Source: a virus. From it: a stretch of 45,892 nt of DNA. The stretch lies in the IMG/VR virus record IMGVR_UViG_3300009296_000003, positions 1-45,892 of that record; one strand, 5' to 3'. The position numbers and the translations under genes were made by a program. Position 1 is the stretch's first letter, and each line of letters opens with the position of its first letter. Positions 1-37,670 of the stretch are shown here, piece after piece. The notes beneath the pieces were generated by a model. The model had not been told where the DNA came from, ran no database searches, and was given only the letters and a program-made list of their open reading frames with translations.

Positions 1-183
1 AAGCTGTGGGCCGATGGTGATAAGCTGTGGGCCGAGGGTGATAAGCTGCGGGCCGATGGTGATAAGCTGTGGGCCGAGGGTGATAAGCTGTGGGCCGAGG
101 GTGATAAGCTGCGGGCCGATGGTGATAAGCTGTGGGCCAAGGGCAACAAGCTGCGGGCCGATGGTGATAAGCTGTGGGCCGAA
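1..183 (+). repeat. 21-bp tandem repeat, eight full units plus a partial one
   Basis: The unit AAGCTGTGGGCCGAKGGTGAT is repeated in register at 1, 22, 43, 64, 85, 106, 127 and 148, with a partial unit at 169. Variants differ at a few sites only: TGG/CGG, GAT/GAG, and one unit with AAGGGCAAC. The near-identity at synonymous sites points to recent expansion by slippage or recombination rather than old duplication. The array runs off the left edge, so its total copy number is unknown. Confidence 0.9.
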
Positions 184-297
184 GCCATCATAGCGGTACA
201 CGGCAACATCACGCTGGAATGGAAATCATGGAACCACTGCGTGCTGGGCAACGGGGAGGAATACGGGAATGAAAAAGCATGGGGGCATGTGATATGA
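1..297 (+). CDS. Heptapeptide-repeat protein, 5' truncated by window edge
   Basis: The frame is open from base 1 to a TGA at 295-297, so the start lies outside the window. Residues 1-56 are eight tandem 7-residue units of the type KLWADGD, with W/R alternating at position 3 and D/E at position 5; a ninth unit is partial. About 37 unique residues follow, rich in Trp and His. The amphipathic, highly charged heptads could form a long helix or coiled coil. The family is not recognised; similar KLxAxGD repeats occur in uncharacterised phage proteins as far as I recall. The stop overlaps the next start (ATGA at 294), so the two genes are probably translationally coupled. Confidence 0.7.
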   Translation, partial: KLWADGDKLWAEGDKLRADGDKLWAEGDKLWAEGDKLRADGDKLWAKGNKLRADGDKLWAEAIIAVHGNITLEWKSWNHCVLGNGEEYGNEKAWGHVI

Positions 298-710: not shown

Positions 711-997
711 CCTGTTCCACTTGCCAAGGACTAGGCTGCATAGAACACAAGTCGGTTGTTGGCAACATACCCCGCTCATGCGCTTCGTGTTTTGGCACAG
801 GGGACCTGCCTCCTCCCATTGGTATTCCTCCTCAACTGCTGCGCTTTCTGGATACAGTGAACTACTCTTTTGTAAAGGGAGTTATACTCAAGGAAGAATG
901 GCAGGCAGCAAGGGCTGAGATCATGGACCTGATCAAGAAAGCGAGACCCAGCTACTATGAAGATCGCCAGCAAGACACATCCAGGATTGTTCTATGA
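707..997 (+). CDS. Small DnaJ-type CxxCxGxG zinc-finger protein
   Basis: The N-terminus has two half-sites of the DnaJ Cys-rich type, CSTCQGLG at residues 3-10 and CASCFGTG at 25-32, which together would hold one zinc ion. The C-terminal 60 residues look helical. There is no J domain, so this is not a DnaJ chaperone; small phage proteins with this zinc module are common and of unknown role. The ATG overlaps the upstream stop (ATGA at 707-710). The last 41 nt overlap the start of the SWIM/PolX gene. Confidence 0.75.
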   Translation: MTCSTCQGLGCIEHKSVVGNIPRSCASCFGTGDLPPPIGIPPQLLRFLDTVNYSFVKGVILKEEWQAARAEIMDLIKKARPSYYEDRQQDTSRIVL

Positions 998-1577
998 TGT
1001 CAAAATGACAACGGCTGGCTGGGCGTGTACGTGCCCGCATCATCGCTACCGTGGAGCCAAGTGCAAGCACATACAGGAGGCATTACGCAACACTGTTGCT
1101 AAAGACACTTCCTTCGACCGAGCAGTTGCGGTACTGTTCGCCACTCCTGTCTTGGAGATAACGGGAGGCATACTGTGCGGGTCTTATCGCAGGGGCAAGG
1201 ATAGAGTAGGGGACCTGGATGTTCTGGTCAGTTGTACCGACAGATCGTTCCGATGTATCAGGCGCATGGTACAGGCACGATTCCATCCCATATACTGGGG
1301 GGAGCAGAAGTGCAGCTTCATCATTCCCTTAAGCACCAGAGAGTTGCAGGTTGATATCAACAGAACAGAGCAGAGGTGCTTGGGCAATGCGTTGCAACAC
1401 TTCACCGGCAGCAAAGAGGAGAACATCCGGATACGCAAGATAGCCCTTCGCAAAGGATGGAGCATGTCACAGCATGGATTCGTCAACTTGACAACCAACA
1501 AGCTGGTGTGTCATGAGCACGAAACAGAAGTCTATGACTTTTTAGGAGAAGCGTTCAAGCAACCGTCCGAAAGATAA
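957..1577 (+). CDS. SWIM zinc finger fused to a PolX-family nucleotidyltransferase domain
   Basis: Residues 24-38 form a SWIM-type zinc motif (C24-x-C26, C36-x-H38). Residues about 65-185 match the core of family X DNA polymerases: GSYRRGK (75-81), the metal-binding DLD (D86, D88), a third Asp in VDI (D133), and the HFTGSKEENIRIR stretch (148-160) typical of PolX thumb and dRP-handling enzymes. At 206 residues it lacks the helix-hairpin-helix N-terminus and PHP domain of bacterial PolX. Inference: template-independent or gap-filling nucleotide addition on DNA bound by the SWIM finger. The start lies inside the previous gene, and the ribosome site is weak. The three catalytic Asp residues are present, so it is probably active. 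Confidence 0.85.
   Translation: MKIASKTHPGLFYDVKMTTAGWACTCPHHRYRGAKCKHIQEALRNTVAKDTSFDRAVAVLFATPVLEITGGILCGSYRRGKDRVGDLDVLVSCTDRSFRCIRRMVQARFHPIYWGEQKCSFIIPLSTRELQVDINRTEQRCLGNALQHFTGSKEENIRIRKIALRKGWSMSQHGFVNLTTNKLVCHEHETEVYDFLGEAFKQPSER
1087..1099 (+). repeat. Copy 1 of GCAACACTGTTGC palindrome (inside coding sequence)
   Basis: This 13-mer with 5-bp arms and a 3-nt centre is identical to the copy at 3900 and is the reverse complement of the core at 6028. Here it lies within the SWIM/PolX gene, about 500 bases before the amidoligase cluster. Because it is in coding sequence it could be chance or a leftover of duplication; its identity to the two intergenic copies is the reason to list it. 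Confidence 0.5.
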
Positions 1578-1586
1578 GGAGAAGAC

Positions 1587-2648
1587 ATGACAATAGCCAG
1601 AAGGTGCGAATCATGCGGAGCATGCGACACGCTCGGCAATCCAATAGAGAGTGCGTTGTTCTTCCCCGACAAAGTTCGAAAGATGTTTTGCCATGAATGC
1701 ATTGCTTCGTTTGGGGTTGTGTGCCTTGGCTGCGGACTTACATGGCTTGAGAAGGGGGCAAGATCGGCCTTGTTGAAATGTCCATTGTGCTCGGAAGAAG
1801 GTTATTGCTCCATCAATCCATACGTAGATACGTTTGGCATTGAGATAGAGACAGAAAGCAGAACCGCGTCTCAGTTGGAAGAAGATGAACTAGACCCAGA
1901 CGTAGACTACGACGAAGACGCAGACCAGGACCATAACTATGACACGAGAAACCAATCATTAGAATCACTACTGAAAGATCACCCAGAACTAACGGGAATT
2001 ATCATGGACTCACATCAAGACGGAAGCCTTATAGAAGGAATTGAGTTCTCTCTTAATCCGCTTACCATTCATGAACTGAAAAGCATGTTGCCCGTGATGC
2101 TGCGATTCCTAAAGGGGCACGGGCTATCGGCCAAAAGTCCAAGATGCGGAATGCACATACACTTCCCTTGCTATGCCAGCAACGGAATGTTGGTGGATTA
2201 TGGAAGCATGATAGATGCATACCGAGTGTTCCCAAATCAGATTCATGCCATTTGCGAGAGGGGAATTGGTGAACAAGGGAGGAATTCTACATACTACAAG
2301 ACCCCGTCGTTTTCGGGAAGCTCAATCTATTTCAATAGACAGGTCTATATGACAACAAAGCAAATCTCAGAAGAGAAACCTTCCCAGATACAGAAGTACC
2401 TGTGTTTGTCAAAGAGATGGATGTATAGAACTTATGAGTTCAGGCAGCCAGCGGGCACTATGTCATTCAAAGGAATCATGGCAAGGCTGCGCCTGGCAGC
2501 GTTCCTGAAGGCACTCGGGACGCCAAGCATCAAGACCGGACAAGCCTCGGACCTGAACGATCCAATGCAGCGCAGGATATGGACGCATAGGCTGTATAAA
2601 ACCCCTTATATCGGCGACTTCATCAAGGGCATTCCGGCAGCAGTGTAA
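1587..2648 (+). CDS. Zinc-ribbon/Amidoligase_2-like COOH-NH2 ligase, copy A
   Basis: The first 75 residues hold Cys pairs (C7/C10, C35/C38, C46/C49, C65/C68) of RING or zinc-ribbon type. The rest matches the phage and fungal Amidoligase_2 family, a glutamine-synthetase-fold group that joins carboxyl and amine groups using ATP: GIEIETE (84-90), HQDGSL then GIEFSL (143-156), GMHIHF (188-193) and a final TYEFRQPAG (282-290). An Asp/Glu-rich insertion (98-118) is unusual. A strong AAGGAG precedes the ATG. Substrate unknown; the neighbouring GATase-like, second ligase and ATP-grasp genes indicate one pathway. Copy A lacks the usual EVVS-type strand found in copy B. Confidence 0.8.
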   Translation: MTIARRCESCGACDTLGNPIESALFFPDKVRKMFCHECIASFGVVCLGCGLTWLEKGARSALLKCPLCSEEGYCSINPYVDTFGIEIETESRTASQLEEDELDPDVDYDEDADQDHNYDTRNQSLESLLKDHPELTGIIMDSHQDGSLIEGIEFSLNPLTIHELKSMLPVMLRFLKGHGLSAKSPRCGMHIHFPCYASNGMLVDYGSMIDAYRVFPNQIHAICERGIGEQGRNSTYYKTPSFSGSSIYFNRQVYMTTKQISEEKPSQIQKYLCLSKRWMYRTYEFRQPAGTMSFKGIMARLRLAAFLKALGTPSIKTGQASDLNDPMQRRIWTHRLYKTPYIGDFIKGIPAAV

Positions 2649-2671
2649 CGTAAAGAAAGGCAGGTTAGAGC

Positions 2672-3895
2672 ATGTGTGTTATCGCGTATAAACCGGCGGG
2701 AAAGAAGTGGTTCAACATGGAGGAGTTGCAGAACTGCTTCCTTAACAACGCCGATGGGGCGGGCCTGATGTACTACGCCAAAGACGGGCAGGTAATAATC
2801 AAGAAGGGATTCATGAGCAGCGCCTTCTCCAAGTTGGGAAAGGCAATGTCCGACATTCCAGACGAGAGCAAAGAGGGTCCGGTGGCGTGGCACTTCAGAA
2901 TCAGGACTCATGGCAAAGTCAGCCCAGAGATATGCCATCCATATCCCATATGCGATGACTACAAAAACATGAAACTCGTGTCGTGCTCATGCAGATCAGC
3001 CCTAATGCACAACGGAATATTCCCTCTCATTCCAGAGAATGACAGCGTGTCCGATACCATGTGCTTCGTCAAGAACATACTTATACCACATCCCAACCTC
3101 CTGACTGACGACGGAGACCTGCTGCTTCATCTGGCAGTTGGATCGTCAAGGTTACTGGTGTTCGGGCCAAAGCGCAAAGTGCTGACTGTTGGCAAGTGGG
3201 AAACAGAGAGGGATATTATGTACTCCAACACTTCCTACAAATGGGTTCGCAGCCCATACTCCAATACGACAGGAGGCGCGACCACTGGATACTCCAGCTA
3301 TGGATCATCCTACCCTTTTAAACATACCGCAGAATTTATCTCAATGGATTCGACAGCTTCATGTCAACAGTGCATCAACTTCCGCAAGAAGTATGATGAC
3401 GAGCCATGTAGAAGTTGCGACAAGACAATACGCGATAACTTCACTCCAAACAAAAGCCTGCGAGACTGTAATACATGCATTCGCAACGATGCCCCGTCCA
3501 CAGACGAAGTGTGCAATGCGTGCTTGGTGAGCGAGCGAAACGGAATGGATGTCTCGTTCAATAAGTGGGCAATGGACAGGAAGGAATGGATAAAGACTCG
3601 CAAAGCCATGGTAGAAAAAGCCAATGCCAACACAACCGCAACGCCTTCCGCCACAGTCACGAAACCAACGGAGACAACCGAAAAGCAATCCGAACTTCCA
3701 ATGGTCATGCGACCAGCCACTACAAATACTCTCGGTGGCCGCAACAGCGTGTGCCCATGGTGCATTCACATGAACAAGACAACCGGGGAAGACCCGTGCG
3801 TAGAGTGCTATCACCTGCCTGCTAGTCCACGATTCGTAAGAAGGAGACAGCACGTGGAGGATGGGGCCGAGTTTCAGGAAGGATACGCTGGTTGA
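2672..3895 (+). CDS. Class II glutamine amidotransferase-like Ntn-hydrolase with Cys-rich tail
   Basis: The N-terminus MCVIAY would expose Cys2, the nucleophile of class II amidotransferases, after Met removal. Further family signatures follow: NNADGAG (25-31), HFRIRTHG (74-81), MHNG (112-115) and SDT (127-129), covering the substrate-binding and oxyanion regions. Known relatives release ammonia from glutamine or cleave gamma-glutamyl amides. After about residue 228 come CxxC pairs (CQQC, CRSC, CNTC, CNAC, later CPWC and CVEC), probably two or three zinc modules. It sits between the two amidoligase genes, so it may feed ammonia to them or trim their product. The pairing of this fold with zinc repeats is uncommon. 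Confidence 0.85.
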   Translation: MCVIAYKPAGKKWFNMEELQNCFLNNADGAGLMYYAKDGQVIIKKGFMSSAFSKLGKAMSDIPDESKEGPVAWHFRIRTHGKVSPEICHPYPICDDYKNMKLVSCSCRSALMHNGIFPLIPENDSVSDTMCFVKNILIPHPNLLTDDGDLLLHLAVGSSRLLVFGPKRKVLTVGKWETERDIMYSNTSYKWVRSPYSNTTGGATTGYSSYGSSYPFKHTAEFISMDSTASCQQCINFRKKYDDEPCRSCDKTIRDNFTPNKSLRDCNTCIRNDAPSTDEVCNACLVSERNGMDVSFNKWAMDRKEWIKTRKAMVEKANANTTATPSATVTKPTETTEKQSELPMVMRPATTNTLGGRNSVCPWCIHMNKTTGEDPCVECYHLPASPRFVRRRQHVEDGAEFQEGYAG

Positions 3896-3899
3896 TTGC

Positions 3900-3912
3900 G
3901 CAACACTGTTGC
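3900..3912 (+). promoter_or_regulatory. Copy 2 of the GCAACACTGTTGC palindrome, before amidoligase B
   Basis: A perfect inverted repeat with 5-bp arms fills the short gap between the amidotransferase-like gene (ends 3895) and amidoligase B (starts 3926), just ahead of its AGGAGG site. The same sequence recurs in longer form before the ATP-grasp gene. Position and symmetry suit an operator for a dimeric repressor or a small RNA hairpin controlling translation. Confidence 0.55.
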
Positions 3913-3925
3913 ATAGGAGGGCACC

Positions 3926-5485
3926 ATGCCAGATAGACAAGACACAACAGAAAGAGAAGAAGACAACAGGCTAGAGTGGGTTCTTAATGCATTAAACAAT
4001 GGTAGTATATACTCCCATCCATTGGAGTACACTGAACAGGCAACGCGTAACCCAATAGAGCCACCGTCGATGGAACCACTTCAGACGAGCAGCTTAGTGA
4101 ACAATGTGGCAGAAACATCAGACAAGGAGGACGAAATGGCAAAGACAACACCGGGAATAAAACAGAAAGAATACGCGCAGTGCCAGCAATGCGGAGCAAA
4201 GGTTGAGGCCTCGACGATGGTAAAAGCAATCTTCTCCAAGACCAGACACATGATGCTGTGTAGTGCCTGCAACTCTGCCCTTGGCAGGAACGGAAACGGA
4301 AAATGTGCATCGTGCGGAATCGAAGCATACACCACGCTTATGCACATCTTCCAAGTAAACCGGCAGCGCATCAAGAGGTTTGGCCCTGCGTCAGAGAAGT
4401 TCTTGTGCGATGATTGCAGGGCATCGCTTTCAATATGCAACATTTGCGGCAAGCTTATGCCAAACACAAGATCGGGAGGCAGGAGGTCGTGTGCTGACTG
4501 CACCCCCAGCGCCCAATGCAGAGAACATGACTGGAAAATCAAGCCGGTAATGCACGCACAGGCAGACGACGAAACGGACTGCTCTGACGTGTCCAATACC
4601 GACCCTGTGTACCTGACGACAAGAGGGGTGGAGCAACTCAAGAAGACGGTGATGATGGGTGTTGAAATAGAAACAGACGGAGGCAAGAAGTGCGAGGCCC
4701 TGATAGAAGAGATAGAAGAAGGAAACAGATTCCTGCGCACAAAGCACGATGGCTCCCTGTCTGTATTTGGGTTTGAGGTAGTGTCTCAGCCGGCAAACCT
4801 TAGATTTCATCACAAATCAGCAGAATGGAAGCAACTGTTCAGATTGCTGAAAGAGTACGAGTATGACAACTCGACAAGGCTGGCCGGAATGCATGTTCAC
4901 ATAGACCTCCACTCATTCATCGGAACTTCCGGAATGACGGTCTGGGAAGTTCTGGGAAGGTGGGTGTTTATGATGATTATGCACCGAAGCCTGTTTGAGT
5001 ATGTGGGCGGAAGGTCTGGAAGCAACGAAACCGTGAGAAGGTACTCCTGCTATCCCAACGACAAGTACAGGATATCGCCCAAGTTACTGGCCGATAAGCT
5101 GGCCAAGATCAGTCAGTGGTATTACTGGACAGACCACGAGCACAGGTATCAGGCAATCAACATGCACGGACTTGCCATGAATCAAACTCCAACAGCAGAA
5201 ATGCGGTTCATGCTTGCTCCGGTGGAATGGAGTTCCTTCTTTGTGCGACTTGAATTCATAGATGCAATGACAAGGTACTGCCGCAGATGTTCCTCCGGGC
5301 CTGAGACTATGACTGACTACGCAAAGAAGAATTCCACCCTTGCATGTTTCGTGGAGTACGCCAACGAACACAAGGCCAGGTACATCAACTTGACTCCGTT
5401 CTTGTCCAATATAGTGGCGTCTAATGATTTAGCAAAAGAGTATGTGCCTGCCACTGAAGAGCAGGAGGTTTCTGGAAGTGAGTGA
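3926..5485 (+). CDS. Zinc-ribbon/Amidoligase_2-like COOH-NH2 ligase, copy B
   Basis: Residues 86-200 hold four zinc-ribbon-like Cys clusters. From 245 on the Amidoligase_2 pattern is complete: GVEIETDG (245-252), KHDGSL (273-278), GFEVVSQP (282-289), GMHVHID (321-327), RYQAINMHG (407-415) and TAEMRFM (423-429). The family makes amide bonds between carboxyl and amino groups with ATP. Copy B is paralogous to copy A but longer (519 against 353 residues). It has two credible starts, at 3926 and at Met71 (4136), each with a strong SD; the first 70 residues are low-complexity, acidic and without Cys. The family call is firm, the substrate unknown. Confidence 0.87.
   Translation: MPDRQDTTEREEDNRLEWVLNALNNGSIYSHPLEYTEQATRNPIEPPSMEPLQTSSLVNNVAETSDKEDEMAKTTPGIKQKEYAQCQQCGAKVEASTMVKAIFSKTRHMMLCSACNSALGRNGNGKCASCGIEAYTTLMHIFQVNRQRIKRFGPASEKFLCDDCRASLSICNICGKLMPNTRSGGRRSCADCTPSAQCREHDWKIKPVMHAQADDETDCSDVSNTDPVYLTTRGVEQLKKTVMMGVEIETDGGKKCEALIEEIEEGNRFLRTKHDGSLSVFGFEVVSQPANLRFHHKSAEWKQLFRLLKEYEYDNSTRLAGMHVHIDLHSFIGTSGMTVWEVLGRWVFMMIMHRSLFEYVGGRSGSNETVRRYSCYPNDKYRISPKLLADKLAKISQWYYWTDHEHRYQAINMHGLAMNQTPTAEMRFMLAPVEWSSFFVRLEFIDAMTRYCRRCSSGPETMTDYAKKNSTLACFVEYANEHKARYINLTPFLSNIVASNDLAKEYVPATEEQEVSGSE
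4124..4138 (+). promoter_or_regulatory. Internal ribosome site and ATG within amidoligase B
   Basis: AAGGAGG at 4124-4130 followed after 5 nt by an in-frame ATG at 4136 would make a 449-residue product that keeps all zinc and ligase motifs but lacks the acidic 70-residue N-terminus. The upstream start at 3926 has an equally good AGGAGG. Either the true start is 4136 or two forms are made. Confidence 0.55.
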
Positions 5486-5498
5486 TACTAAAAGAGTT

Positions 5499-5534
5499 GC
5501 GCCGTCAGGCACACTGTAGTACACCTAACGGCGC
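5499..5534 (+). other. Intergenic hairpin after amidoligase B
   Basis: GCGCCGT (5499-5505) pairs with ACGGCGC (5528-5534), and AGG/CCT extends the stem beyond a single mismatch. No T-run follows, so it is not a classical terminator. It lies in the 98-nt gap between amidoligase B and the next gene and could stabilise the 3' end of the transcript or attenuate it. Confidence 0.55.
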
Positions 5535-5583
5535 GTCAAACAAGAAGGAGTAACGACACACATGTACAACAAAAGGAGAGGAC

Positions 5584-5886
5584 ATGTCAATCAAGATCAG
5601 TGAAGTGTCGATGGGTAAACACAGCGAAGAAGTTGCGCAGATGCTGATCGAAACAGCTCGCAGCATATGTGATCACATGGGATACGACCCAAAAGGGGCC
5701 GACTCTATCCTTGGAGTAATGGACTACATTCAGTCCTCCGTCAAGGAGAGGATCGCCTGCGAAATGCAGGAAGATCACAAGATGTTCAACACCGACGAGG
5801 ACGAGGGAGACGTAGAAACGGAGGTCGTAATAGATGAACCAATTCCTGTACGTCTGCATGCGGGCAAGGTGCGGAAAGCCACATAA
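5584..5886 (+). CDS. Hypothetical acidic protein (100 aa)
   Basis: The start follows AAAGGAGAGGAC, a good ribosome site. Residues 10-65 look helical; residues 68-84 are strongly acidic, followed by a short basic tail. No family is recognised. The gene lies between amidoligase B and the ATP-grasp gene in the same orientation, so it might be a carrier, substrate or accessory factor of that system, but only its position suggests this. The last 53 nt overlap the following zinc-finger gene. Confidence 0.65.
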   Translation: MSIKISEVSMGKHSEEVAQMLIETARSICDHMGYDPKGADSILGVMDYIQSSVKERIACEMQEDHKMFNTDEDEGDVETEVVIDEPIPVRLHAGKVRKAT

Positions 5887-6019
5887 TAGACACCGATCTC
5901 GCTACTGTAGCCACATGTGCCAAGTCCTCAACAAGAGGGAGAAGGGGTATGAAAGGAAGCGCCTTCGCAGGCAGGGCGCAGGATACGACGAGCCGTACAC
6001 AATACACCTGCCAAAGTAA
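5834..6019 (+). CDS. Small zinc-finger protein (61 aa), YCSxxC type
   Basis: Residues 8-29 carry C8, C13 then YCSHMC (C25, C29) around a basic stretch, like the small CGKP...RRYCS..C zinc ribbons of phages and bacteria. The rest is basic, so nucleic-acid binding is plausible. GGAGG at 5820-5824 is spaced 9 nt from the ATG. The 53-nt overlap with the upstream acidic protein is out of frame, and the Cys pattern and ribosome site argue that this short frame is a real gene. Confidence 0.65.
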   Translation: MNQFLYVCMRARCGKPHNRHRSRYCSHMCQVLNKREKGYERKRLRRQGAGYDEPYTIHLPK

Positions 6020-6024
6020 CGATG

Positions 6025-6043
6025 TATGCAACAGTGTTGCATA
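6025..6043 (+). promoter_or_regulatory. Copy 3 of the palindrome, 8-bp arms, before the ATP-grasp gene
   Basis: TATGCAACAGTGTTGCATA is a perfect inverted repeat with 8-bp arms and a 3-nt centre. It sits in the gap between the 61-aa zinc protein and the ATP-grasp gene, directly before AAGGAGGT. Its core is the reverse complement of the copies at 1087 and 3900. A shared operator for the two ligase genes, or a translational hairpin, is the likely meaning. Confidence 0.6.
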
Positions 6044-6059
6044 AACAAGGAGGTAACAT

Positions 6060-6923
6060 ATGAACAAGTACATGATGCGGTTGAGGGTTGGCGTTCCTGG
6101 CCATGGGCGTAAGTGTGCTAGAATCTTGGGAATACCAACCGTTTCGCAGTCAGGAATGATACGGGACGCAGGACATGACAAGGATGGTGAAACGTATGGT
6201 CCTCTTGAAGACTTCTGTGACGAGGACGTGTTTATCAACTATGGAGTATGCCATGAAACACGGTACATCGAAGACCTGCGAAGGGACCACGTCAGAATCA
6301 TCAACGACCCGGAGCACACTGCACTGTCCTCTGACAAGGTCAAGACCTTAGCCATCCTGAAGTCAGCAGGAGTTCCTGCACTGACGTTCATGACAAACAA
6401 GGAGCAGGCCAAGGAGTTCATGTCAACCTATGCAATGCATCCCAGCAGAATCTATTGCCGCACACTGACGCGCTCCAAGAAGGGCAAGGGTATCGTGATA
6501 GCGTCATGCCAGAACGAACTAGTAGACGCACCGCTGTATACCGTGGAGTTTCCCAAGACCCACGAGTACAGGGTGCACGTAGCCGGAGGCAACGTCATTG
6601 ACTGGGTGCAGAAGAAGCGCTGCCCACGCCTAAGCGAGGACGGGGAAGTGAATGAGGACGTGCGCAACCGTGGTAGAGGCTGGTACTTCAGTCACAAGAA
6701 TCGCAGGGGACACCAGAAGATACGCGACATTGCGGTACGGGCAGTGGAGGCTCTTGGCCTGGACTACGCCGCCGTAGATATGTTAGCCATTTGGAAGCCT
6801 AATGCACACGGAAAGATGCAACTGCAAGACTGCGTATGTTGCGAAATAAATTCAGCACCAGGCCTTACGAGCCGGATATCGCTGGAAGCATACATTAAGT
6901 ACTTCAACGGCATCACAAGATAG
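6060..6923 (+). CDS. ATP-grasp ligase (RimK/YheC-like), 287 aa
   Basis: The C-terminal half has the ATP-grasp pattern: EYRVHV (169-174), DYAAVDML (235-242) and CEINSAPGLTS (261-271), where the Asp, Glu and Asn would bind Mg-ATP. The LKSAGVPAL stretch (100-108) and the preceding SDK fit the N-terminal ATP-binding lobe. ATP-grasp enzymes activate a carboxylate as acyl-phosphate and join it to an amine or thiol. With the amidoligases and amidotransferase-like protein upstream it completes a putative peptide or amide conjugation set. A perfect AAGGAGGT site precedes the ATG. It is short for the family but all core motifs are there. Confidence 0.87.
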   Translation: MNKYMMRLRVGVPGHGRKCARILGIPTVSQSGMIRDAGHDKDGETYGPLEDFCDEDVFINYGVCHETRYIEDLRRDHVRIINDPEHTALSSDKVKTLAILKSAGVPALTFMTNKEQAKEFMSTYAMHPSRIYCRTLTRSKKGKGIVIASCQNELVDAPLYTVEFPKTHEYRVHVAGGNVIDWVQKKRCPRLSEDGEVNEDVRNRGRGWYFSHKNRRGHQKIRDIAVRAVEALGLDYAAVDMLAIWKPNAHGKMQLQDCVCCEINSAPGLTSRISLEAYIKYFNGITR

Positions 6924-7455: not shown

Positions 7456-7515
7456 ATGAGCAAGCTGCTGGACGTCAAGGCGGCGGCAAGGGAGGAAAGA
7501 AAATGGACACACTGA
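7456..7515 (+). CDS. Possible leader mini-ORF (19 aa)
   Basis: A GGGAGG site precedes this ATG with normal spacing. The 19-residue product is basic and ends inside the first codons of the hexapeptide-repeat gene. It might couple or tune translation of that gene. It could equally be a decayed gene remnant, and nothing beyond the ribosome site supports it. Confidence 0.3.
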   Translation: MSKLLDVKAAAREERKWTH

Positions 7516-8147
7516 AAATCACAGCGGCGAACCGGGCGCAGTATGAGAACACAGCACTAGAATATGCGGGGCATGTTGAGATTGAGGCCGAGTTGGGATG
7601 GGTCACATTTGCATCCATCACAGCGACAGGATGGATACGTGCGTTCACTGGCACGGGCATCAAGGCTGGCACGGGCATCAAGGCTGGCGAGGACATCAAG
7701 GCTGGCACGGGCATCAAGGCTGGCACGGGCATCAAGGCTGGCGAGGGCATCAAGGCTGGCGAGGACATCAAGGCTGGCGAGGACATCGAGGCTGGCACGG
7801 GCATCAAGGCTGGCACGGGCATCAAGGCTGGCTGGGACATCGAGGCTGGCTGGGGCATCAAGGCTGGCGAGGACATCTCGGCGGGAGAAGACATCTCGGC
7901 GGGCTGTGGCATCTCGGCGGGCTGGGGCATCTCGGCGGGCTGGGGCATCTCGGCGGGAGAAGGCATCTCGGCGGGAGAAGGCATCTCGGCCAAGTTCCTG
8001 GAAGCGACGCTCCGCATATTCGCGGGGCTAATCAACAGGCGTCTACCGAAACCGGAAGAGACGGAGATCCGCGCAGAAATACGCAAGGGCATAGTGGCAC
8101 TGGGGACGGTGATCGCGGCGGCAAGGGAGGAGGGGAGGCGTGGATGA
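7503..8147 (+). CDS. Hexapeptide-repeat protein, probable beta-solenoid (214 aa)
   Basis: Residues 50-163 are 19 uninterrupted six-residue units of the form GxxIKA or GxxISA. A strict Ile and Ala every six residues with Gly at the turn is what a beta-solenoid built from short rungs needs; it resembles, but does not match, the acyltransferase hexapeptide pattern. The 49-residue N-terminus and the 51-residue C-terminus, which is basic and helical, are not repetitive and could be a docking head and cap. GGAGG lies upstream of the ATG. Possible roles are a structural rod, surface mimic or fibre, but its place in the early block argues against a main tail fibre. Function unknown. Confidence 0.75.
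   Translation: MDTLKITAANRAQYENTALEYAGHVEIEAELGWVTFASITATGWIRAFTGTGIKAGTGIKAGEDIKAGTGIKAGTGIKAGEGIKAGEDIKAGEDIEAGTGIKAGTGIKAGWDIEAGWGIKAGEDISAGEDISAGCGISAGWGISAGWGISAGEGISAGEGISAKFLEATLRIFAGLINRRLPKPEETEIRAEIRKGIVALGTVIAAAREEGRRG
7650..7991 (+). repeat. 18-bp tandem repeat, 19 units
   Basis: Exactly 342 bp of 18-bp units. The first 12 encode GxxIKA or GxxIEA (consensus GGCACGGGCATCAAGGCT) and the last 7 encode GxxISA (GGCTGGGGCATCTCGGCG). Positions 2-3 of each unit vary among TG, ED, EG, WD, WG and CG while the rest is nearly invariant at the DNA level. The two sub-blocks imply two separate expansions. The periodicity keeps other frames open, which produces spurious ORFs. Confidence 0.92.
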
Positions 8148-29755: not shown

Positions 29756-30790
29756 TTACCCCCTGAGTACATGTTCAAAAACTTGCAGCCACTTTGAATA
29801 GGTCTGGCTGATGTCGTATTGCTTGATGACCTGCATGCGTGCCCTGAATCCCAGACTGTCTCGTAACGCTTGGTCCTGCACGAGTTTATCCAGCCTGTCG
29901 AACCACTCGTCTTCATTAGATGCCAGAAATCCGGTGCTCCCGTCAACTATGGATTCATACGGTTCCAACTTGCTGGCTACAGTAGGGATGCCAAGACAGG
30001 AATAATGTAGAAATTTTACGTTGGACTTCGAGCGATTAAACAGGTTGTCTTCCAATGGAGCAATACCTATGTCGCAATCAACCATGGACATTGGAAGCAC
30101 GTTGATCTCGTTCCAGCCCTCTATATGCACCCTGTCGGGATGCTCCTTGGCAACGAGTTCTATGGCTTCCTTCTCAAACACCCCCATGAGCGTCAGGTGC
30201 ACATTCTTGTGCTTGTCCATGATCTTGTTGATTGGATTGACGATAATTGGCATGTCAAGGTTGTGAGACCCTGAGGCGAACCACATGATATTGATTTCAT
30301 CGTCCTTCTTCTCCGTCCTGAGGAGCAGTCTCTCGGTGAAGGCATAGTTGTTTTGCTCTACATCAAGCGAATTAGGAAGCACGAAGATAGGTTTGGACGT
30401 GAGCTTTGCTACCTGTTGAGCCAGGAATACAGTGGACACCGTGACGGCATCTACGCTGGCAAGGAATAGCCCTATTGTCTCTCGCACGTCCTTGCGGCCA
30501 AAGAACTGGTATGGTATAGAGAACTTCTCCGGCAGATTGAACAGGTCATCGTCAAGGTCGTAGATGCACTTGATGCCACGCTCTCTGGCAAGGTGCATCT
30601 TAGCAAGGGCCACCGGGTCTGTCTGGCGCTGGAATACAAGAACGTTGGCGAGCAGGAAGTCCGAGGACATCATGTTGAGCTTTGCGTCTATGTGGACATT
30701 TGGACATCTGGCGTTGATTTCCCTGGCTATGAGTTCACCCCTGATGTGTCCGCAGCAATGCAGGTCGCTCAAGTACATCTTGACGTTCAT
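29756..30790 (-). CDS. Glycosyltransferase, GT4-like
   Basis: The 344-residue protein carries typical group 1 glycosyltransferase signatures in its second half: WFASGSHNLDM (about 170), CDIGIAPLEDNLFNRSKSN (240-258), GIPTVAS (about 266) and GSTGFLA. The E-x7-E region of classical GT4 enzymes is only weakly matched. It transfers sugar from a nucleotide-sugar to an acceptor, perhaps virion protein, phage DNA or host surface glycan. AAGGAG precedes the ATG. Its insertion among virion genes is unusual and suggests glycosylation of a structural protein. Confidence 0.8.
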   Translation of the reverse strand: MNVKMYLSDLHCCGHIRGELIAREINARCPNVHIDAKLNMMSSDFLLANVLVFQRQTDPVALAKMHLARERGIKCIYDLDDDLFNLPEKFSIPYQFFGRKDVRETIGLFLASVDAVTVSTVFLAQQVAKLTSKPIFVLPNSLDVEQNNYAFTERLLLRTEKKDDEINIMWFASGSHNLDMPIIVNPINKIMDKHKNVHLTLMGVFEKEAIELVAKEHPDRVHIEGWNEINVLPMSMVDCDIGIAPLEDNLFNRSKSNVKFLHYSCLGIPTVASKLEPYESIVDGSTGFLASNEDEWFDRLDKLVQDQALRDSLGFRARMQVIKQYDISQTYSKWLQVFEHVLRG

Positions 30791-36838: not shown

Positions 36839-37528
36839 CTATTCTATTGGTATCTCGATGGCAGCGCCACCGACGTAGTATTGCTTCCAGTCAGAAACGG
36901 TCAGGCGTCCGTGGCCATGACATCCAAAATTGTCGCCCCACTGGTTCTCGAAATTGACGAAGTTTGGACTGCCCTTGGTCAGGTCGAATCCGGAACCAAC
37001 GACCAAGTAGTATCCTACTATGGTTCCTTCGTTGTGAATAAGGCCATCGTGTCCCGTAAGGTTCCAACCTTCTGTTACCGAGTAACAGGACAGCACCAGC
37101 ATGTAGTCTTGGATAGCGTACTGGTATTCCTCAAGGGTTCTGATGTTGTGCATCTTCGACAAGGCCGGGATGTATCCCAAGCGCTTGCCGGAGGTAAAGG
37201 CTGCTGCTATAGTGGTGCCTTCCTCCCCTTGACTTCCATCGTCCTTCTTGGCTTCCTTGTACCATACGGAAGGATCGGCCAGGTCATCCACCAGGACATG
37301 CGTTCTTTGCCACCTAATCGCCTCTAGGAGCTGTTTGAACCCGTAGATGACACACCAGGGGCGGGTCCCTTGGTTCTCTGCTGGAGGGCAATCTCGGCGG
37401 TTATCGATGACTGGTTTAGGGTCCCATGATGCATCTATTGACAATGGTCTAGTAGAACGAAAGATGATGTCGTTCATGTTGCCAGTGATTACCGGACCTA
37501 CTGGGTACTTGCCTGCAAGCATGTACAT
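36839..37528 (-). CDS. Papain-like (C1A-type) protein lacking the usual His
   Basis: ATG 37528 follows GGGAG at 7 nt; a longer frame to 37633 overlaps a lipoprotein gene and is judged spurious. Residues 45-64 match the papain Cys block (oxyanion Q53, C59), and NQWG (195-198) matches the Asn block. The His block aligns as VGYYLVVGS (171-179) with Tyr or Gly where papains have His-Ala. Nearby H160 or H165 might substitute; otherwise it is a binding or inactive protein. Context (lipoproteins, membrane protein) suggests a role in the host wall or envelope. Confidence 0.7.
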   Translation of the reverse strand: MYMLAGKYPVGPVITGNMNDIIFRSTRPLSIDASWDPKPVIDNRRDCPPAENQGTRPWCVIYGFKQLLEAIRWQRTHVLVDDLADPSVWYKEAKKDDGSQGEEGTTIAAAFTSGKRLGYIPALSKMHNIRTLEEYQYAIQDYMLVLSCYSVTEGWNLTGHDGLIHNEGTIVGYYLVVGSGFDLTKGSPNFVNFENQWGDNFGCHGHGRLTVSDWKQYYVGGAAIEIPIE

Positions 37529-37532
37529 AGTT

Positions 37533-37670
37533 CTACTCCCATGGCTCTTGTGGCCACTCTGGCGTCCACCAAGTATGCTGTGATGGTTCAGGTACATCTT
37601 CCTGAACTCTCGGAGTGCTGCAACTGCATACACATACCACGCAAATGAGTGCTATAGCAACGCGAATCAC
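37533..37670 (-). CDS. Small lipoprotein (45 aa), GTG start
   Basis: GTG overlaps the stop of the upstream gene (GTGA) and follows GGGGAGG at correct spacing. A hydrophobic run from residue 4 ends in VCSC, a lipobox with Cys17 as the lipidated residue. The mature part is short, with Pro, Glu and Trp (WWTPEWPQEP). Its size and setting recall Rz1-type outer-membrane spanin lipoproteins, but no Rz-type partner is certain. It ends 4 nt before the papain-like gene. Confidence 0.6.
   Translation of the reverse strand: MIRVAIALICVVCVCSCSTPRVQEDVPEPSQHTWWTPEWPQEPWE

Follow-up and report, generated by a model that had tools for sequence, protein, structure and literature searches.

A divergent, cysteine-rich variant of a known phage cassette of amidoligase, class II glutamine amidotransferase and ATP-grasp ligase in an IMG/VR virus record

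Four genes of amide-bond chemistry lie in one run within IMG/VR virus record IMGVR_UViG_3300009296_000003, raising the question of whether they form a system of their own and what such a system would make. The whole 45,892-base record, a tailed-phage-like genome that may be a fragment, is referred to here as the window. A first-pass annotation made from the sequence alone named the products as two Amidoligase_2 proteins (amidoligases, AL; here AL1 and AL2), an N-terminal nucleophile (Ntn) class II glutamine amidotransferase (GAT) and an ATP-grasp ligase, and presented them as a candidate conjugation system. We find the set to be a Cys-rich (‘Zn-type’) and divergent form of a phage AL/class II GAT/ATP-grasp cassette that was already known. 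The four identities and the amide-bond theme are borne out by family matches and conserved active-site residues, whereas the notion of an unreported system does not stand, as papers have described the cassette in phages like LUZ24, phiEco32, RIO-1 and Marvin. Neither outcome named by the annotation as fatal to its proposal was observed: ligases lacking a glutamine-synthetase fold or an ATP site, or four genes that never co-occur in relatives. We hold the enzyme identities and the membership in the broad AL-GAT cassette with high confidence; the full reading, a Zn-type cassette together with the chemistry proposed below, is one that we favor with some reserve.

Both ligases are of the Amidoligase_2 type. 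AL1 matches PF12224 above its 22-bit cut-off (E 1.9e-6, 28.4 bits). AL2 scores 14.9 bits, under that cut-off, and was placed in the family via PHROGs (phrog_16683, E 8.7e-15; phrog_7469 ‘amidoligase’, E 3.7e-6) and iterated profiles. The pattern that is invariant or nearly invariant across the family (G-x-E-x-E, D-G-S, E, H-x-H, E-x-R) is kept in AL1 (G84, E86, E88, D145, S147, E153, H190, H192, E284, R286) and in AL2 (G245, E247, E249, D275, S277, E284, H323, H325, E425, R427), whose catalytic domain spans residues about 235-465. AlphaFold models were obtained with a predicted local distance difference test score (pLDDT) of 67 and a predicted template modeling (TM) score of 0.66 for AL1, and a pLDDT of 61 for AL2 with its core at about 90. 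Among the 50 best PDB matches of the AL1 model, nearly all are glutamine synthetase (GS) or YbdK (probability mostly 0.9-1.0, best E 1.2e-3), and the best six of the AL2 model are GS (best E 3.2e-4). With marginal E-values and low TM-scores, the models support the GS fold class for both ligases rather than its details.

The GAT has no Pfam match but matches phrog_25883 (E 1.7e-6); tblastn hit phage genes, many annotated as glutamine amidotransferase, the stronger hits having E-values of 6e-22 to 1e-6, and a profile of the family matched GlmS (E 4e-21) and also PurF in the PDB. The residues C2 (the N-terminal nucleophile after Met1), R76, H113-N114-G115 and D128 are invariant or nearly so in 27 sequences. 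The Ntn amidotransferase domain occupies residues 1 to about 198, and the C-terminal region holds three CxxC-x11-CxxC repeats at residues 231, 266 and 361. As single proteins, neither the GAT nor AL2 found a match in IMG/VR scans, for which alignments were needed, and tblastn of AL1 against phages returned none.

The ATP-grasp protein falls in phrog_2599 (E 2e-49), and its profile matches RimK-type PDB chains (E 2e-8), its relatives by profile being RimK, MptN, CofF and LysX. It keeps all of R171, H173, K185, E262 and N264, which are invariant or nearly so across the aligned relatives. It resembles the RimK alpha-L-glutamate ligases in fold-level sequence similarity and in ATP/Mg motifs, but falls below the family cut-offs (PF08443, 20.9 against 21 bits; TIGR00768, 35.2 against 143.4) and is accompanied by no S6-like substrate gene. 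Matches occurred in 308 of 50,697 phage records. Two of the fetched records carry two ATP-grasp genes of the family, L060 and the 50.8-kb record L055 (G021), in the latter at 643-1401 and 46305-47078.

CxxC pairs number five in AL1, all at the N-terminus (residues 7-68), six in the GAT and seven in AL2, counts that none of 5000 shuffles per protein reached; the single pair of the ATP-grasp is at chance level. The spacing of these cysteines suggests zinc binding, and the Cys-rich parts of AL1 and AL2 are of low confidence in the AlphaFold models. Other GATs of our first locus set have 0-5 CxxC pairs. Cys-rich modules on three of the four enzymes, as first proposed, were therefore found, but they are not the oddity they were taken for, since a zinc-module amidoligase is the rule in the window’s subclass.

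In order to compare the locus with others, 80 IMG/VR loci were fetched by ATP-grasp alignment alone, blind to neighbors, and the open reading frames (ORFs) of fetched loci were searched with profiles grown from the window and phage seeds. For 57 loci the upstream sequence extended 4.5 kb or more; an AL was present in 56 of them and a GAT in 56, which supports the linkage of the genes in other phages. Of 79 loci picked by the GAT alone, 76 had an AL no more than 6 kb away, nearly always as the adjacent gene. The window genes share converged hidden Markov model families with genes of K4, MEP402 and Marvin. The same set was found in annotated Pseudomonas phage K4, Klebsiella phage Asterion, Rhizobium phage RHph_N3_19 and Escherichia phage KBNP1711, and the cassette also occurs in LUZ24-like, phiEco32-like, Zobellviridae and RIO-1-like phages. 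Replication genes lie downstream of the cassettes. Strong matches in GTDB genomes carry the same cassette, in several cases next to a replicative helicase, which is what phage DNA that was binned into metagenome-assembled genomes would be expected to show.

Published examples include UFV-P2 ORFs 21-29 (PMC3890496) and the ‘peptidoglycan modification cassette’ of RIO-1, phiEco32 and LUZ24, which is described as putative (PMC5498523, PMC11945000). The window shares with the cassettes of RIO-1, phiEco32, LUZ24, tf, PaP3 and PA11 an Amidoligase_2, a class II GATase and an ATP-grasp in one early-gene run near replication genes. The canonical companions are a PF14395 ligase (COOH-NH2_lig), a protein of about 200 amino acids (aa) and no known function (k26), a C26 hydrolase/class I GATase-like protein and a gamma-glutamyl cyclotransferase (GGACT). 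Two GS-fold ligases are thus present in the window and in the RIO-1/LUZ24/phiEco32 cassette alike, although the second one of the window is another Amidoligase_2 rather than PF14395, and the window alone has Cys-rich modules on both ligases and the GAT. Closer in this respect are Marvin gp105-gp106 and MEP401/MEP402 (PMC10580990), which like the window have a Cys-rich N-terminal AL extension, an adjacent class II GAT and no PF14395; unlike the window, this Mycobacterium phage and these Methylophilales phages have one amidoligase, and the whole Marvin and MEP402 records hold no ATP-grasp. In four canonical cassettes of the Rhizobium-phage type, a second GAT, of the MCVI type, directly precedes a cyclotransferase gene (L004, 7020-8156; L071, 7776-8924; L082, 8017-9093; L091, 7736-8854).

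The amidoligases of these loci fall into two groups: short proteins with no upstream Cys cluster, in loci with PF14395, and proteins with an N-terminal extension holding at least two CxxC, in loci without it. Untruncated amidoligases comprised 56 plain with PF14395, 87 Cys-rich without, none Cys-rich with and 21 plain without; some of the last belong to loci cut by contig ends, and some near-identical contigs were counted more than once. Because the AL tree shows largely one deep split between the groups, the zero overlap does not represent 143 independent events. One cassette, L074 (2487-5210), is a near-copy of the L075 cassette in which the PF14395 and AL genes are broken up into overlapping frames, through either decay or misassembly.

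AL2 sits in the Cys-rich, PF14395-less clade of the AL tree, and the GAT likewise falls in the Cys-rich clade. AL1 has a long branch whose placement shifts with sampling: two careful trees put it next to the PF14395-side clade, and a quick tree with broader sampling puts it within the Cys-rich half. A recent AL1/AL2 duplication is not supported, as the two were sisters in no tree, although sisterhood was not firmly rejected by the approximately unbiased test (p-AU 0.059 and 0.345). The window ATP-grasp is nearest to canonical-group loci, unlike AL2 and the GAT; by these affinities the cassette may be a mosaic.

Two Amidoligase_2 genes in one cassette are rare (5 of about 190 loci, including the window), which upholds the first-pass annotation on the paralogues themselves, though two GS-fold ligases per cassette are usual. 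The other loci with two intact amidoligases are L127 and L159 (AL-GAT-AL), L155 (AL-GAT-AL-GAT) and L101 (AL-AL-GAT), so that three of the five have the AL-GAT-AL order. In L127 and L159, from IMG/VR, a GAT of the window’s family lies between two amidoligases, but the sequences are only distantly related to it and the 71.5- and 49-kb records hold no ATP-grasp. It is conceivable, if rather doubtful, that AL-GAT cassettes form two mechanistic classes, one with PF14395 acting on gamma-glutamyl substrates and one whose zinc-ribbon modules would choose another target, for instance a protein or a nucleic acid; in that case the window, given its three Cys-rich enzymes and additional amidoligase, would represent an elaborate form of the second.

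The enzyme families imply the general chemistry, namely glutamine hydrolysis, acyl-phosphate activation, amide formation and ATP-dependent amino-acid addition. We propose that the GAT hydrolyzes glutamine and passes the ammonia to a neighboring amidoligase, which would activate a carboxylate with ATP as an acyl-phosphate and convert it to an amide. The second amidoligase would form a second amide or an amine conjugate, and the ATP-grasp, related to glutamate-adding ligases, would attach an amino acid, for example glutamate, to the substrate. Because the companions of relatives (PF14395-type ligase, C26 hydrolase, gamma-glutamyl cyclotransferase) act on gamma-glutamyl bonds, the most likely substrate is a peptide or small molecule that bears glutamate or glutamine and would be synthesized or modified early in infection. 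We lean toward this chemistry, with the order of steps and the substrate drawn by inference.

Host peptidoglycan stem-peptide precursor is the leading candidate target, though a tentative one, and the proposed benefit would be superinfection exclusion, an idea said to go back to Iyer et al. 2009. Peptidoglycan is also the target favored, as a hypothesis, in the literature (PMC5498523, PMC11945000), where we found no experiment supporting it.

Several observations weigh against the reading of the locus as a Zn-type cassette with this chemistry. No window ORF of 50 aa or more matched PF14395 (CNL), and the GGCT and C26 profiles had no match in the window record, itself possibly a fragment; the gamma-glutamyl logic is hence borrowed from relatives. 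An ATP-grasp lay within 6 kb in just 23 of the 79 loci picked by the GAT alone, and none was found in the whole Marvin, MEP402, ctgrD200, L127 and L159 records, while positive controls were detected. Hosts of the cassette range from mycobacteria to Gram-negatives, and our literature search found no biochemical test of any cassette member. Many close relatives keep AL and GAT alone, and by this gene content the two are the core and the ATP-grasp a dispensable add-on; such a core fits glutamine-dependent amide formation.

Among other explanations, the one that fares best, while still improbable, is modification of a host or phage protein, in which the ATP-grasp would glutamylate as RimK does on S6, the amidoligases and GAT would amidate or cap, and the Cys-rich modules would recognize protein or nucleoprotein. 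By profile, the characterized enzymes closest to the ATP-grasp are RimK-type alpha-glutamate ligases, binding to proteins or nucleic acids is common among Cys-rich modules, and phage R2K ATP-grasps have been proposed to modify host proteins (PMC4431377). However, the RimK cut-offs are missed, the canonical companions have gamma-glutamyl bonds as substrates and no conserved partner substrate gene was found.

Somewhat less probable still is a small diffusible or intracellular metabolite, such as a gamma-glutamyl or polyamine conjugate or an ammonia-handling product, that would aid nucleotide synthesis or counter defense. The C26 hydrolase and cyclotransferase companions do resemble gamma-glutamyl-amine cycles, cassettes adjoin replication genes, and some papers class the cassette as auxiliary metabolism; but both companions are missing from the window and mostly from its Cys-rich class, and a PADLOC defense-system search gave no defense-related family match. 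Hypermodification of phage DNA, with an amino acid or amide attached to a modified base, is very unlikely: amide chemistry, possibly nucleic-acid-binding Cys-rich modules and early-region placement would suit it, but no base-hypermodification gene was recognized among the window ORFs examined (a subset of all ORFs), the phages reported to carry the cassette have unrelated DNA biology, and we found no report tying it to DNA modification.

LysX-type ATP-grasps work with a small zinc-ribbon carrier, and the two small ORFs between AL2 and the ATP-grasp, one with a zinc-finger-like Cys/His pattern, had been put forward as carriers or substrates. We regard LysW-like carriers as the least credible explanation and the ORFs as unlikely to be conserved cassette parts, since neither has a homologue in any other cassette, the commonest small gene in cassette gaps occurs in only 7 of 159 IMG/VR loci, and their C-termini (LPK and KAT) lack the LysW-type carrier glutamate.

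In the window (Table 1), the plus strand carries early genes from position 1 to about 19.7 kb, and the minus strand carries large genes; a DnaB-like helicase lies 6 kb downstream of the four-enzyme set. The coordinates first given for the four enzyme ORFs hold. All start with ATG, a purine-rich, Shine-Dalgarno-like stretch precedes each start, and the gaps between genes are short. Promoter-like sites were at no more than chance level, and an Rfam search gave no match. A candidate hairpin between AL2 and the 100-aa ORF was rejected, as the stretch folds no better than shuffles (z -0.9).

Table 1. Positions of the cassette genes and of other features in the window
Feature	Position	Strand	Description
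Tandem repeats	1-193		at least 7 21-bp repeats at record start, coding VISCGP-type heptapeptides
SWIM/PolX protein	957-1577	+	206 aa; SWIM-like zinc motif joined to PolX palm/thumb
AL1, Amidoligase_2 (PF12224)	1587-2648	+	353 aa; Cys-rich N-terminus; deeply divergent paralogue
GAT, class II (Ntn) glutamine amidotransferase	2672-3895	+	407 aa; Cys-rich C-terminal region
AL2, amidoligase	3926-5485	+	519 aa; N-terminal Cys-rich (zinc-ribbon-like) extension
Small acidic ORF	5584-5886	+	100 aa; no relatives found
Small ORF	5834-6019	+	61 aa; overlaps 100-aa ORF; small-zinc-finger Cys/His pattern
ATP-grasp ligase, phrog_2599 family (RimK/MptN-like)	6060-6923	+	287 aa
Tandem repeat	7503-8147		18-bp repeat, 16 register copies, coding AGxxIKAG-like hexapeptide run
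Glycosyltransferase	29756-30790	-	phrog_7162, E 7e-43; among large minus-strand genes
Papain-like cysteine peptidase motif	36839-37633	-	motif seen by eye; in minus-strand gene block

The SWIM/PolX gene, which ends 10 bases upstream of AL1, encodes a protein that matches DNA_pol_B_thumb (E 7e-15) and carries a GSYRRGKDRVGDLDVLV motif; its PolX 8-kDa domain seems to be missing, and no relative was found among the fetched cassettes. The hexapeptide run downstream of the ATP-grasp perhaps forms a beta-solenoid.

The points that are new here are the mutual exclusion of PF14395 and Cys-rich amidoligases, the recurring AL-GAT-AL order, the identification of AL plus GAT as the core, and the poor case for the small ORFs as carriers. 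Although the cassette occurs widely among tailed phages, we found no demonstrated product for it in the literature. The split between PF14395-bearing and Cys-rich cassettes provides a concrete lead on substrate choice, and the AL-GAT pair, which many phages carry by itself, offers a minimal unit of two proteins open to direct assay.

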